From: Methanohalophilus halophilus
GTDB lineage: Archaea; Halobacteriota; Methanosarcinia; Methanosarcinales; Methanosarcinaceae
Assembly (NCBI RefSeq): GCF_001889405.1
Contig: NZ_CP017921.1
Location: forward strand, 1,192,057-1,256,056
Direction of reading: 5' to 3'
DNA length: 64,000 bases
Below the pieces are notes generated by a model. The model was not told the DNA's origin. It did not search any database and was given only the letters and a program-made list of their open reading frames with translations. The stretch's first letter is position 1; each line of letters begins with the position of its first letter. The translations under genes were made by a program, and so were the position numbers. This document shows, piece by piece, positions 15,380-19,745 of this stretch.

Positions 15380-16183
15380 ATGCCTTATAATATAAGGAAA
15401 ATATTTGGTGTGGATTTTAGCGGATCTAAAAAAGCCTGCAATAAGATATGGGTAAGTGAAGGAAGCATTTACGATAACTTCCTCAAAATCCACACCTGTC
15501 ATCCTGCTCACTTTTTTTCTGAAAGCCATGATACTCAGAGTTGTATTACTGCTCTTTATAGCATGATCGCCAGGGAAAAATATGCTATTTTTGGAATGGA
15601 TTTTCCTTTTGCACTCCCATCTTCCCTAACAGAAGAAAACAACTGGAAGGAGTTCATAATCAATTTCCCTCTTAAGCATGCCTCTGCAGAAAGTTTCAGG
15701 GATTACTATCGCCAGAAAACAGATGGAAAAGAATTCAAACGTAAAAAGGAAAATGAAAAAGGTGCACCATTTGCTGCATACAATCTCTGGCTATACAAAC
15801 AGACTTATTATGGTATCTCAAGAATAATTAATCCACTTATAAGGAATAACCTTGCCTGTATTCTCCCTATACAAACTCCGAATCCTGAAAAACCCTGGGT
15901 AGTTGAGATATGTCCGGCCTGCACCCTGAAAGAAAAGGGTTTATATGTGCCGTATAAAGGAAAAAAGAGTGATAGGGAAGCTAACAGGAAACTTATTGTG
16001 GATAAGTTAGAAGAATTTAATATTATGCTTGATAATGAAATAAAAGATATATGTATTTTAAATACTCAAGGTGATGCTCTGGACAGTATTCTGGCAGCGT
16101 ATGCCGTATTCAGGAATATGCAGATCCTGGAAGAAAAAAACCCGGATGAAATTGAAAAAAGAGAAGGTGATGTTTATTATTAA
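15380..16183 (+). CDS. DUF429 family protein
   Basis: A 267-residue cytoplasmic protein of the DUF429 family (RNase H-like fold, function unknown). The N-terminal FGVDFSGSKKA and the internal FGMDFPFALPS are the acidic strand motifs of that fold. The C-terminal DALDSILAAYAVFR matches the conserved DALDA helix. It starts nine bases after the inositol-phosphate synthase stop, so co-transcription is likely, though a functional link is not evident. Its last bases overlap the convergent AfpA gene by four. Confidence 0.65.
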   Translation: MPYNIRKIFGVDFSGSKKACNKIWVSEGSIYDNFLKIHTCHPAHFFSESHDTQSCITALYSMIAREKYAIFGMDFPFALPSSLTEENNWKEFIINFPLKHASAESFRDYYRQKTDGKEFKRKKENEKGAPFAAYNLWLYKQTYYGISRIINPLIRNNLACILPIQTPNPEKPWVVEICPACTLKEKGLYVPYKGKKSDREANRKLIVDKLEEFNIMLDNEIKDICILNTQGDALDSILAAYAVFRNMQILEEKNPDEIEKREGDVYY

Positions 16184-16731
16184 TCCTCTTTTCCTTCTAT
16201 ATTCAACAGCTCATAAATATCATCAGGTTTTGTCAATATGTACATGTTTTCCATTTCAGCCAGTTTTTCTGAATTGGTAACATCAATGTCCCGCATCTTC
16301 AACTTCATTTTTCTTCCACTGGGTGCATAGGTGGTAACATCACCACGTACCTGATCAACAGGCAGGACATAAATTGGTGTTTGCCCTTTTGCGGTCTGGG
16401 CCACAACATTTGTTACAAGGGTATCGGCAATACCGTGTGCTATCTTGGCAACAGAATTGGCTGTGGCTGGTGCGATAATCAAAGCATCATAATGACCAAC
16501 CTGCAATGGGCCGGCAATAAAAGGTGAGTTAGGGCCCGCATCTGTTTTGAAGTTAGGGAAATCTTTCTGTATGTCATCCCACATTCGATACCATTTCATT
16601 ACAGTTTCCCCTTCTCTTGAAAGAAATACCATAAACTCAATATCGGTTTTTTTCTTTATGTCTACCATTATGTCATACGTCTCTTTTATAAGGTCACCTG
16701 AGCCTGTAATACCCCATGCGATTCTTTTCAT
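16180..16731 (-). CDS. afpA: Archaeoflavoprotein AfpA
   Basis: A flavoprotein of the flavoprotein/Dfp-like fold found in archaea; the Archaeoglobus homologue accepts electrons from ferredoxin-type donors. GITGSGDLIKETYDIM forms the flavin-phosphate loop, and ALIIAPATANSVAKIAHGIADTL is the conserved cofactor-binding helix with the PATANS motif. The start at 16731 is fixed by AGGAGGA before MKRIAWG; the longer frame to 16752 adds only seven residues that contain this ribosome-binding site. It is the last gene of the nine-gene redox operon, 17 bases after the FNR-like reductase, which is a plausible electron-donating partner. Confidence 0.85.
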   Translation of the reverse strand: MKRIAWGITGSGDLIKETYDIMVDIKKKTDIEFMVFLSREGETVMKWYRMWDDIQKDFPNFKTDAGPNSPFIAGPLQVGHYDALIIAPATANSVAKIAHGIADTLVTNVVAQTAKGQTPIYVLPVDQVRGDVTTYAPSGRKMKLKMRDIDVTNSEKLAEMENMYILTKPDDIYELLNIEGKED

Positions 16732-16748
16732 AACATTCCTCCTGGGAT

Positions 16749-17447
16749 TCAATAACCTGTAAATAGCTCATACTTAACTTTAGATTTATCCACATTCATT
16801 TGATATAGTATTTCCTTAACAGCCTCTACCATAGGTGGAGGACCACATATATAGAATGTCCTTTCCCTGTAATCCGGAATCTCCCGCAATATCATGCTTT
16901 CACAGACACGTTCTCTGCAACCTTCCCACTCCTCGGAAGCCCGGGTGAGGGTATGTACGACTTTCAGGTTAGGATTGCGCTTTTGCATAGTATCCAGCTC
17001 ATCGCGAAAGGCAATATCCTGTTCTGTTTTATTGCTGGATATCATAACAATATTCGTATCCATACCTTTGTCTGTACAGTAACGTGAGATACTAATCATG
17101 GGTGTGATCCCGATTCCTCCGCTAATAAGCGCAATTTTGTCATATTCTCCTGAATAGGTCATTTTCCCGAAGGGACCTTCAATCCCTGCCGTATCACCGG
17201 CTTGAAGTGAAAGTAAAGCATCGGAAAACTCATGGCCTGTGAGTTTCTTGGTAAATTCAATGATATCCTTGTTGGTCGGACTGCTGGAGATAGTAAATGG
17301 TTTGCGTACCTTTTTTTCTCCTATTTCCAGTTCCACGAAAATATACTGGCCCGCCAGGTAATCAAAACCATCAGGTCGGGGAAATAGAAAACTTACCACA
17401 TCTTCGGTCCTGGGAATGGTTTTCAGAAGCGTTGCATCAAATTGCAA
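16749..17447 (-). CDS. FNR-like FAD/NAD(P)H oxidoreductase
   Basis: A 232-residue two-domain flavoreductase of the ferredoxin-NADP reductase superfamily. The FAD part shows RKPFTISSSP (the RxxS/T motif) and GIEGPFGKM. The nucleotide part shows GGIGITPMISI and the C-terminal YICGPPPMVEAV. There is no 2Fe-2S module, so the partner redox centre must be another protein, probably the adjacent iron-sulfur flavoprotein, ferredoxin or AfpA. The start is TTG at 17447 with GGAG eight bases upstream. Confidence 0.85.
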   Translation of the reverse strand: MQFDATLLKTIPRTEDVVSFLFPRPDGFDYLAGQYIFVELEIGEKKVRKPFTISSSPTNKDIIEFTKKLTGHEFSDALLSLQAGDTAGIEGPFGKMTYSGEYDKIALISGGIGITPMISISRYCTDKGMDTNIVMISSNKTEQDIAFRDELDTMQKRNPNLKVVHTLTRASEEWEGCRERVCESMILREIPDYRERTFYICGPPPMVEAVKEILYQMNVDKSKVKYELFTGY

Positions 17448-17461
17448 TTTATGATCTCCTT

Positions 17462-18085
17462 TTATTGCTCCAGTTTCTTCATCTGCAGGGCTGTCAGGAT
17501 AAGTTTTTTCATTGTACGGCGCAGACTGCGCAATCCTTCTTCGTCCTCATCTATACCTTCTGCTCCTTTGTCCTTGGACCACAGGGTGCCGCCAAGGTTT
17601 GACCCGAATGAACCACCACCAACAGGGATCATTTCATTGATCACATAGAAGTTTAGTATAGTCTGGAGGGATGGCTCCTGTCCACCCATTCGATCACCTC
17701 CATCTGCCAGTGCAGCCCCTACCTTATTGTGGAATGCCTTCGGGTCTGCCGCTACAACTGCCCTGCACCTGTCCATTATGGTTTTGGTCTGTGCACTGAG
17801 GTTTCCCTGATACACCGGTGTCCCTATTACCCAAGCATCCGCCCACTACATTTTCTCATACAGGTCAGAAATGTCATCTTTGTGGATGCATCCCTTCTTG
17901 GTTCTTATACAATGATCACAATGGATACAGAATTTCAATTCTTTCCCGCTTGCAGAAAAATACTCCACTTCAGCATTGTATTTTTCCTTTGCATAATCCA
18001 ATGCATATTGCACGGCACGAGCAGTTGCCTTTTTGCGAGGACTGCCCGAAATTCCAAGTATTTTCACAATGTCCTTGTCGGACAT
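17462..18085 (-). CDS. Iron-sulfur flavoprotein with in-frame TAG (possible pyrrolysine)
   Basis: An NADPH-dependent FMN reductase-fold iron-sulfur flavoprotein of methanogens, which reduces O2, H2O2 or other acceptors using ferredoxin electrons. The N-terminal part has the FMN-phosphate loop GISGSPRKKATAR and the compact cluster motif CIHCDHCIRTKKGC. Frame is kept through a TAG at 17846-17848 and continues WADAWVIGTPVYQGNLSAQT, the conserved core of the family, to TAA at 17462. The product is 207 residues with codon 80 as TAG. No frameshift is needed. TAG differs from CAG by one base. In a pyrrolysine-decoding methanogen, read-through with pyrrolysine is plausible; a recent nonsense mutation is the alternative. 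ATG at 18085 has GGAG upstream. Confidence 0.85.
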
Positions 18086-18100
18086 CAATTCACACTCCTT

Positions 18101-18292
18101 TCACTCAAGTACAATGGCATCAGCCGGACAGGCATCCACACAAAGCTCACATTCTATACAGTCGTCAGGCCGTGAAACTACTGATTTTGTATCCCCGTTG
18201 GAATCTTCTTTCAGATCAAAAACGTCTGTGGGGCATACCTCGGCACATTCACCGCTTCCTATACATTTATCTTTGTCTACAACTGGTGGCAT
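18101..18292 (-). CDS. Ferredoxin with one altered cluster site
   Basis: A 63-residue bacterial-type ferredoxin. The second motif CIECELCVDACP is complete for a [4Fe-4S] cluster. The first, CIGSGECAEVCP, has Ser13 where the second Cys is usual, leaving three ligands, so the protein may carry one [3Fe-4S] and one [4Fe-4S] centre. A charged insertion (KEDSNGDTKS) separates the halves. The ribosome-binding site is GGAGGA. It lies between the cytochrome and the iron-sulfur flavoprotein genes and could pass electrons to the latter. Confidence 0.9.
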   Translation of the reverse strand: MPPVVDKDKCIGSGECAEVCPTDVFDLKEDSNGDTKSVVSRPDDCIECELCVDACPADAIVLE

Positions 18293-18303: not shown

Positions 18304-19677
18304 TTACATTTTCCTTCTAAACAAATAAATTGTTAATAATGCAATCAAGCCAACAAAACTTCCAAATCCTGGTGTTCCTTCAGACTCTACCTCACCGTTT
18401 ATTCCGCCTTTAACGGACTCCATCTCTACAATCGGAACATCGTACTCTCCTCCAAACAGTTCATCTATAAGTGACTGGGGAGCAGACCTGTAGAGCAATT
18501 TCGTATCCACAATGATGGGATCTACTGCACCTTCTGGTACCGTAAAATTATGAACTTCAACGGCAGTTGATTCAGGAGCAATCCTGTTATCAGATATCAC
18601 ATCTGTAATTTCCCATAATTTTAGAGTAGGATTGCCGTCAGCATCGGAATATACGGCCCAGTAAATAATTCCATTTTCGATATTGCCATCCTTATCCAGA
18701 TTTCCTGTACTGTAAATTTCGCGTCCTTGGCTGTCTTTTATATCCACCTGGGTCCACATTTGTCTGGCTTCAGTAAGTCCTGTAGGCAGATTATGGCCTG
18801 CCCCGGAATTCGTAATTGACACTTTAATGGCAACTTCTTCACCCGGTTGTGCATTATCAGGAAGGCTTACTTCAAGTGTTGCCGCTTCCTGAAGTCTTTC
18901 AATTGCCATTTCCCTATGTTCGTCCTCTTCCAGTATCCCTGTAACAAAAACATTGGCTCCTGCGAAGTTGTGCACCGATATATGGTCTCTTTTGGGTGCA
19001 CCTGATCCCGCACGTCCGGGATTTGCCTCAAATTCAGTGATTCCTGGTGTCATATGGCAATCTTGGCATTGGACTTCTTCTTCTTCAGCATAGGGGCCTT
19101 CACTCCATGCCTGATAAGTGTCATCCAGCACTACACCGGATGCTGGGTGGGTAATCTGGTGACACATTCCGCAATACTCTGATTTTGTATAGAATTCACT
19201 GTACTGTGATTCATGGTAAGTAGATTCTGAATCATCGAAGGGGCCATATTTGGTCTCAGAAGGAGTCACCGCATAACCTCCGTTGCCTATTTCAGAGGAT
19301 TCCTTTACACTGTGGCAAAAATCACAGCCTACTCCTTCATCAGCCTCTTCACTTATATTAGGGTTATCTATAGGAGGGACCTGCCCTGAAACCACACTGA
19401 CAGGTATGTGACAACGTGTACAGAAAACGTCAAGAGAGCCATTTGACTCTTCACTTGCAAGCTTTAGTTCTTCCTGGTAAAATGGGTCATCGAAAGCATG
19501 GTAATGCATACTGCCTTCCCACTGGCTTGTCGTGATGGCATGGCATCTGTTGCAGGTAGAATATGAAGTGAAATCTTCATGCGATAATGTGCCTGCTTCA
19601 GTGGGAGAAGCACCAGCTACAACCCCTGCACAGGCAAATAAGAATGTCAAAAGGATAAATATGGATATAATTTTCAC
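18304..19677 (-). CDS. Secreted five-heme cytochrome c with C-terminal anchor
   Basis: A membrane-anchored extracytoplasmic multiheme cytochrome c. After a signal peptide come five CxxCH heme sites: CNRCH, CTRCH, CDFCH, CGMCH and CQDCH, all in the N-terminal half (about residues 42-220), with extra histidines for axial ligation. The C-terminal half is a beta-rich domain. The tail, TPGFGSFVGLIALLTIYLF plus RRKM, looks like a PGF-CTERM archaeosortase A signal. The start is GTG at 19677 with GGAGGGG six bases upstream. Multiheme cytochromes of methanogens are linked to extracellular electron transfer; a similar role is inferred. Heme would come from the Ahb pathway encoded at 57-64 kb, and CcdA at 40 kb may help maturation. 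Confidence 0.88.
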   Translation of the reverse strand: MKIISIFILLTFLFACAGVVAGASPTEAGTLSHEDFTSYSTCNRCHAITTSQWEGSMHYHAFDDPFYQEELKLASEESNGSLDVFCTRCHIPVSVVSGQVPPIDNPNISEEADEGVGCDFCHSVKESSEIGNGGYAVTPSETKYGPFDDSESTYHESQYSEFYTKSEYCGMCHQITHPASGVVLDDTYQAWSEGPYAEEEEVQCQDCHMTPGITEFEANPGRAGSGAPKRDHISVHNFAGANVFVTGILEEDEHREMAIERLQEAATLEVSLPDNAQPGEEVAIKVSITNSGAGHNLPTGLTEARQMWTQVDIKDSQGREIYSTGNLDKDGNIENGIIYWAVYSDADGNPTLKLWEITDVISDNRIAPESTAVEVHNFTVPEGAVDPIIVDTKLLYRSAPQSLIDELFGGEYDVPIVEMESVKGGINGEVESEGTPGFGSFVGLIALLTIYLFRRKM

Positions 19678-19745
19678 TACATACCCCTCCTGAAAATCCC
19701 CCGTCAATATTAATCAGAAGGAGGCTTATATGCCTCCTTGCTGCT

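Follow-up and report, generated by a model that had tools for sequence, protein, structure and literature searches.

We propose that an in-frame UAG codon in an iron-sulfur-flavoprotein-like gene of Methanohalophilus halophilus is decoded as pyrrolysine, and that this residue replaced a leucine uneventfully; we assign this reading a probability of roughly 0.82. From sequence comparisons we infer the incorporation of pyrrolysine, the origin of the base change and its neutrality. The gene is under strong constraint after the TAG (dN/dS ~0.06) and has no signs of decay.

The flavoprotein gene and its internal TAG

The gene occupies 17462..18088, minus strand, of the window, by which we mean the whole 64,000-nucleotide stretch of DNA analyzed. 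Based on its frame, Pfam matches, orthologues and alignment, it comprises 208 codons plus a TAA when one TAG is read through. This TAG (17846..17848, minus strand), a probable pyrrolysine codon on orthologue comparison, is codon 80 counted from the ATG at 18085. In a longer reading the TTG at 18088 is codon 1 and the TAG is codon 81, but the ATG is the likelier start because it is conserved in all sister genomes.

A first-pass annotation of this DNA described a single frame kept through the TAG, conserved residues on both sides of it, and no frameshift or degenerate sequence, and our analysis bears out all three. The frame is open after the TAG up to the TAA. Homology continues on both sides of the TAG in the orthologue alignment and in the PF03358 (FMN_red) match: a genome search returned one match spanning both sides, with 116 bits and one TAG inside, and the read-through protein scored 117 bits over residues 8-163. 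An invariant cysteine motif precedes the TAG, W82, A83 and D84 follow it, and the protein retains all residues that are invariant in the family. Comparison with the sisters revealed no frameshift, indel or further stop in the gene besides the single TAG. Relative to the sisters, dN/dS was 0.03-0.05 before the TAG (dS 0.35-0.46) and 0.04-0.07 after it (dS 0.80-1.07, dN 0.044-0.057). Part of the constraint after the TAG may be older than the TAG itself. Private residues in this portion, such as those in INEMIPVGGG, agree with the wider family consensus where the sisters differ, and therefore need not be changes on the M. halophilus lineage.

Two simpler or more elaborate arrangements were rejected. 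If the locus were two split genes restarting at the GTG at 17815, the start would fall within the conserved PVYQGN core, and the restart fragment would therefore lack half the fold. A downstream pyrrolysine insertion structure was also not found, as the 100 nucleotides after the TAG fold worse than shuffled sequences (z +1.36). UAG decoding is not known to need any cis element (PMC8211752).

The only Pfam matches of the protein are FMN_red and Flavodoxin_2, and the MtmB/MtbB/MttB fold is absent, which confirms that this is not one of the classical pyrrolysine methyltransferases. The predicted model has a WrbA/flavodoxin-like fold. A compact cysteine motif, C-X2-C-X2-C-X6-C (17888..17929, minus strand; codons 54-67 counted from the TTG), is evident in the alignment, with C54, C57, C60 and C67 invariant in all aligned family members; we take these four cysteines to be probable [4Fe-4S] ligands. 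The combination of fold and motif is presumably that of the iron-sulfur flavoproteins of methanogens.

The neighboring genes are all on the same strand. Directly upstream is a ferredoxin with two 4Fe-4S sites (18101..18292), preceded by a multiheme cytochrome c (Cytochrome_C554) with a PGF-CTERM (18304..19707). The next gene downstream encodes an FAD/NAD-binding oxidoreductase (16749..17447); these three genes were assigned by family search. It is followed by the archaeoflavoprotein AfpA (16180..16752; TIGR02699, above cut-off). It is plausible that these genes form a redox cluster, from which the flavoprotein would be produced as a full-length iron-sulfur-flavoprotein-like electron carrier. 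The flavoprotein and reductase genes are separated by an insert of ~1.65 kb in M. profundi (G035:C2:1569597-1571248) and are contiguous in the other genomes. Elsewhere in the window, ~9243-10363 matches a 345-base tandem array of M. mahii, aligning there in many shifted registers; the copy number of this array seems to vary among species.

Codon 80 in related genomes

The continuity of the frame exceeds what chance would give: a colinear orthologue running through the TAG point was found in 96 other Methanosarcinaceae genomes, at 67-93% identity, and none of these has TAG at the site (0/96), so that the TAG is private to M. halophilus among 97 genomes. The five closest sisters encode leucine, two with TTG and three with CTC, while the residue in more distant orthologues is I, E, Q, K, T, P or L. 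This variability contrasts with the conservation of the neighboring Y77, W82, A83 and D84. The orthologue comparison proposed with the first-pass annotation therefore has a divided outcome, in that relatives do carry a sense codon but the gene in this genome has not decayed. Were UAG an ordinary sense codon, conservation of TAG among orthologues would be unneeded, although its absence removes one usual line of support.

CAG had been named as the codon one base away from the TAG. We reject CAG as the ancestral codon; TTG is the likelier ancestor because the sisters have leucine as TTG or CTC. The codon would then have originated, probably, by a single change from leucine TTG. The position is variable, probably non-catalytic and located at a helix end, and UAG there would be read by tRNA-Pyl and pyrrolysine inserted. 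Since lysine occupies the site in some relatives (Methanohalobium and Methanoperedens in the alignment), a long lysine-like side chain is plausible there.

The first-pass annotation also suggested that the residue could matter for regulation or activity, being next to the flavin-binding strand. The location holds: in the predicted model the site is the second-to-last residue of helix 74-82, ahead of strand 85-91, and is followed immediately by WADAW, a conserved strand in the flavodoxin fold. This is also what favors the idea that pyrrolysine was recruited for a special function, either to tune the flavin site or to tie the level of the protein to the supply of pyrrolysine. A special role fits poorly with the remaining evidence, since the site is variable, with leucine in the close sisters, the orthologues accept seven different residues, TAG is not conserved, and there is no sign of a catalytic role for this alignment column. 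We consider such recruitment very improbable.

UAG decoding in Methanohalophilus

The genome, a single contig of 2,022,959 bases, encodes PylS, tRNA-Pyl (anticodon CTA), PylB and PylC/PylD-like open reading frames (ORFs) in one cluster, with pylC and pylD assigned from their position and ORF sequence. All five components of pylTSBCD are therefore present, and the absence of pylT or pylS that would have spoken against pyrrolysine was not found. As a positive control, two mtmB genes of the genome have one TAG each. A search for release factors returned a single full-length aRF1 together with a weak, partial second match, and so gave no hint of how UAG is read.

TAG is rarely used as a terminator in this genome. 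In a 464 kb sample of stretches from it, TAG ends 4 of 374 ORFs of at least 150 amino acids; raw TAG:TAA:TGA trinucleotide counts, with TAG at ~17%, predict that it would account for ~17% of terminators. Two of the four are internal UAGs (mtmB and an AMP-ligase), and one of the other two has a second stop directly after the TAG. Scans for internal stops are prone to artefacts from antisense ORFs and N-terminal extensions, and antisense ORFs still pass a two-sided filter; we therefore relied only on individual genes verified through a family search or their orthologues, and no claim here rests on the ratio of internal TAG to TAA or TGA.

Three such genes outside the methyltransferases have internal TAGs. 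An AMP-binding ligase outside the window (G000:C1:1524418-1526031) has one in-frame TAG, at codon 372, and when read through is a complete enzyme of 538 amino acids; its orthologues in the sisters, at 94-95% identity, are intact and have a sense codon at the site. A DUF6951 protein (G000:C1:1386405-1386749) also has one in-frame TAG, at a codon that is CAG in one of two sisters and CGG in the other. A TPR protein, also outside the window (G000:C1:1368701-1369324), carries TAG in frame in every one of the eight Methanohalophilus genomes. In the six close genomes there are two TAGs each, at codons 91 and 94, three codons apart within one repeat, and the same codons are used in at least five of the six. 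The two distant congeners have TAGs at other codons, and one TAG common to both is codon 50 of their reading, where the close species have lysine; two of ten rows (RSK and Methanococcoides) were left out of this comparison of codon positions. The TPR protein is a stronger case for pyrrolysine than the flavoprotein.

UAG is probably an ordinary sense codon in the genus, because TAG terminators are rare, the AMP-ligase, TPR and DUF6951 genes have internal TAGs, UAG decoding has no known required cis element, and mass spectrometry has detected pyrrolysine in M. portucalensis MttB (PMC4928046). The TAG in the flavoprotein gene would be maintained for this reason, and the change would in effect be a missense substitution. 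Together with the pyl genes and the lack of decay, these observations give good support to the pyrrolysine reading suggested in the first-pass annotation. We think it reasonably likely that Methanohalophilus has fully reassigned UAG to pyrrolysine, with pyrrolysine residues coming and going in ordinary proteins such as the flavoprotein and the three above, sometimes conserved across the genus outside the methyltransferases, and movable between species on recombined alleles.

The main alternative is that the TAG is a recent nonsense mutation at which UAG mostly terminates, leaving a new pseudogene in which decay has yet to set in. The restriction of the TAG to one genome among 97 is consistent with this, as is the low dN/dS, given that a young stop would have had no time for decay. 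However, the genome has a charged tRNA-Pyl with a UAG-reading anticodon and UAG inside other intact genes, one of them conserved through the genus, and the flavoprotein gene is otherwise retained in nearly every family member. We regard a nonsense mutation as unlikely.

A divergent tract surrounds the codon

The TAG lies ~70 bases inside one edge of a divergent tract of ~1.2 kb (16734..17918) that extends across three genes. The tract, delimited by identity windows and private differences, is ~82% identical to the sisters, compared to a median of ~94%; within it, windows fall from ~94% to 78-86%, and it contains 3 of the 7 lowest identity windows among 1,770 sampled. Its edges are sharp, as private differences are dense between 17918 and 16734 and sparse just beyond. 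No close donor was found among eight Methanohalophilus genomes, in which the best match was 84%. These features suggest recombination from an unsampled relative, and homologous import is favored over locally fast evolution because the tract crosses three genes. The TAG would thus be located on an allele probably gained in this way, and could have been imported with it or have arisen afterwards.

The tract also bears on whether the TAG is a sequencing or assembly error, or a strain polymorphism, with TTG as the true codon. The base call rests on one assembly, and TAG is one base away from the TTG of two sisters; the tract, however, shows dozens of real differences, which means that the region is no misread copy of a sister, and other internal TAGs exist in the same genome. 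An error or polymorphism is accordingly highly improbable.

Comparison with known systems

An archaeal code in which TAG is generally read as pyrrolysine has reportedly been described recently, with TAG terminators scarce or absent and many ordinary proteins carrying internal TAGs. Methanohalophilus resembles that code in both respects. Compared with the iron-sulfur flavoprotein (Isf) of methanogens, the protein described here shares the FMN_red fold and the compact N-terminal four-cysteine motif, a likeness known from sequence and the predicted fold, and differs in having a UAG codon inside its gene. With MtmB, MtbB and MttB it shares an in-frame UAG, a genome with pylTSBCD and the lack of a needed downstream element. 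In those enzymes pyrrolysine is catalytic and conserved, whereas here it would occupy a variable site in a flavoprotein, encoded by a UAG private to one genome. The flavoprotein would extend the known pyrrolysine proteins to include a probable redox protein and could serve as a test case in which pyrrolysine stands in for an ordinary residue where the family is variable. Together with the TPR protein, it argues for annotating in-frame UAG as sense in Methanohalophilus, rather than as the mark of a pseudogene or split gene.

Two further observations concern methyltransferase genes. A third MtmB-family gene in the M. halophilus genome (G000:C1:1308926-1310275), located elsewhere from the TAG-bearing copies, lacks any in-frame TAG. 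In two sister genomes, methyltransferase-like ORFs (MSGLxFKERLLNTLKGKPVDRVPVI...; G033:C1:1474427-1475296 and G034:C1:478594-479463) have their terminal TAG in the same place and are followed by 57-63 further codons of similar sequence, and may represent another pyrrolysine gene.
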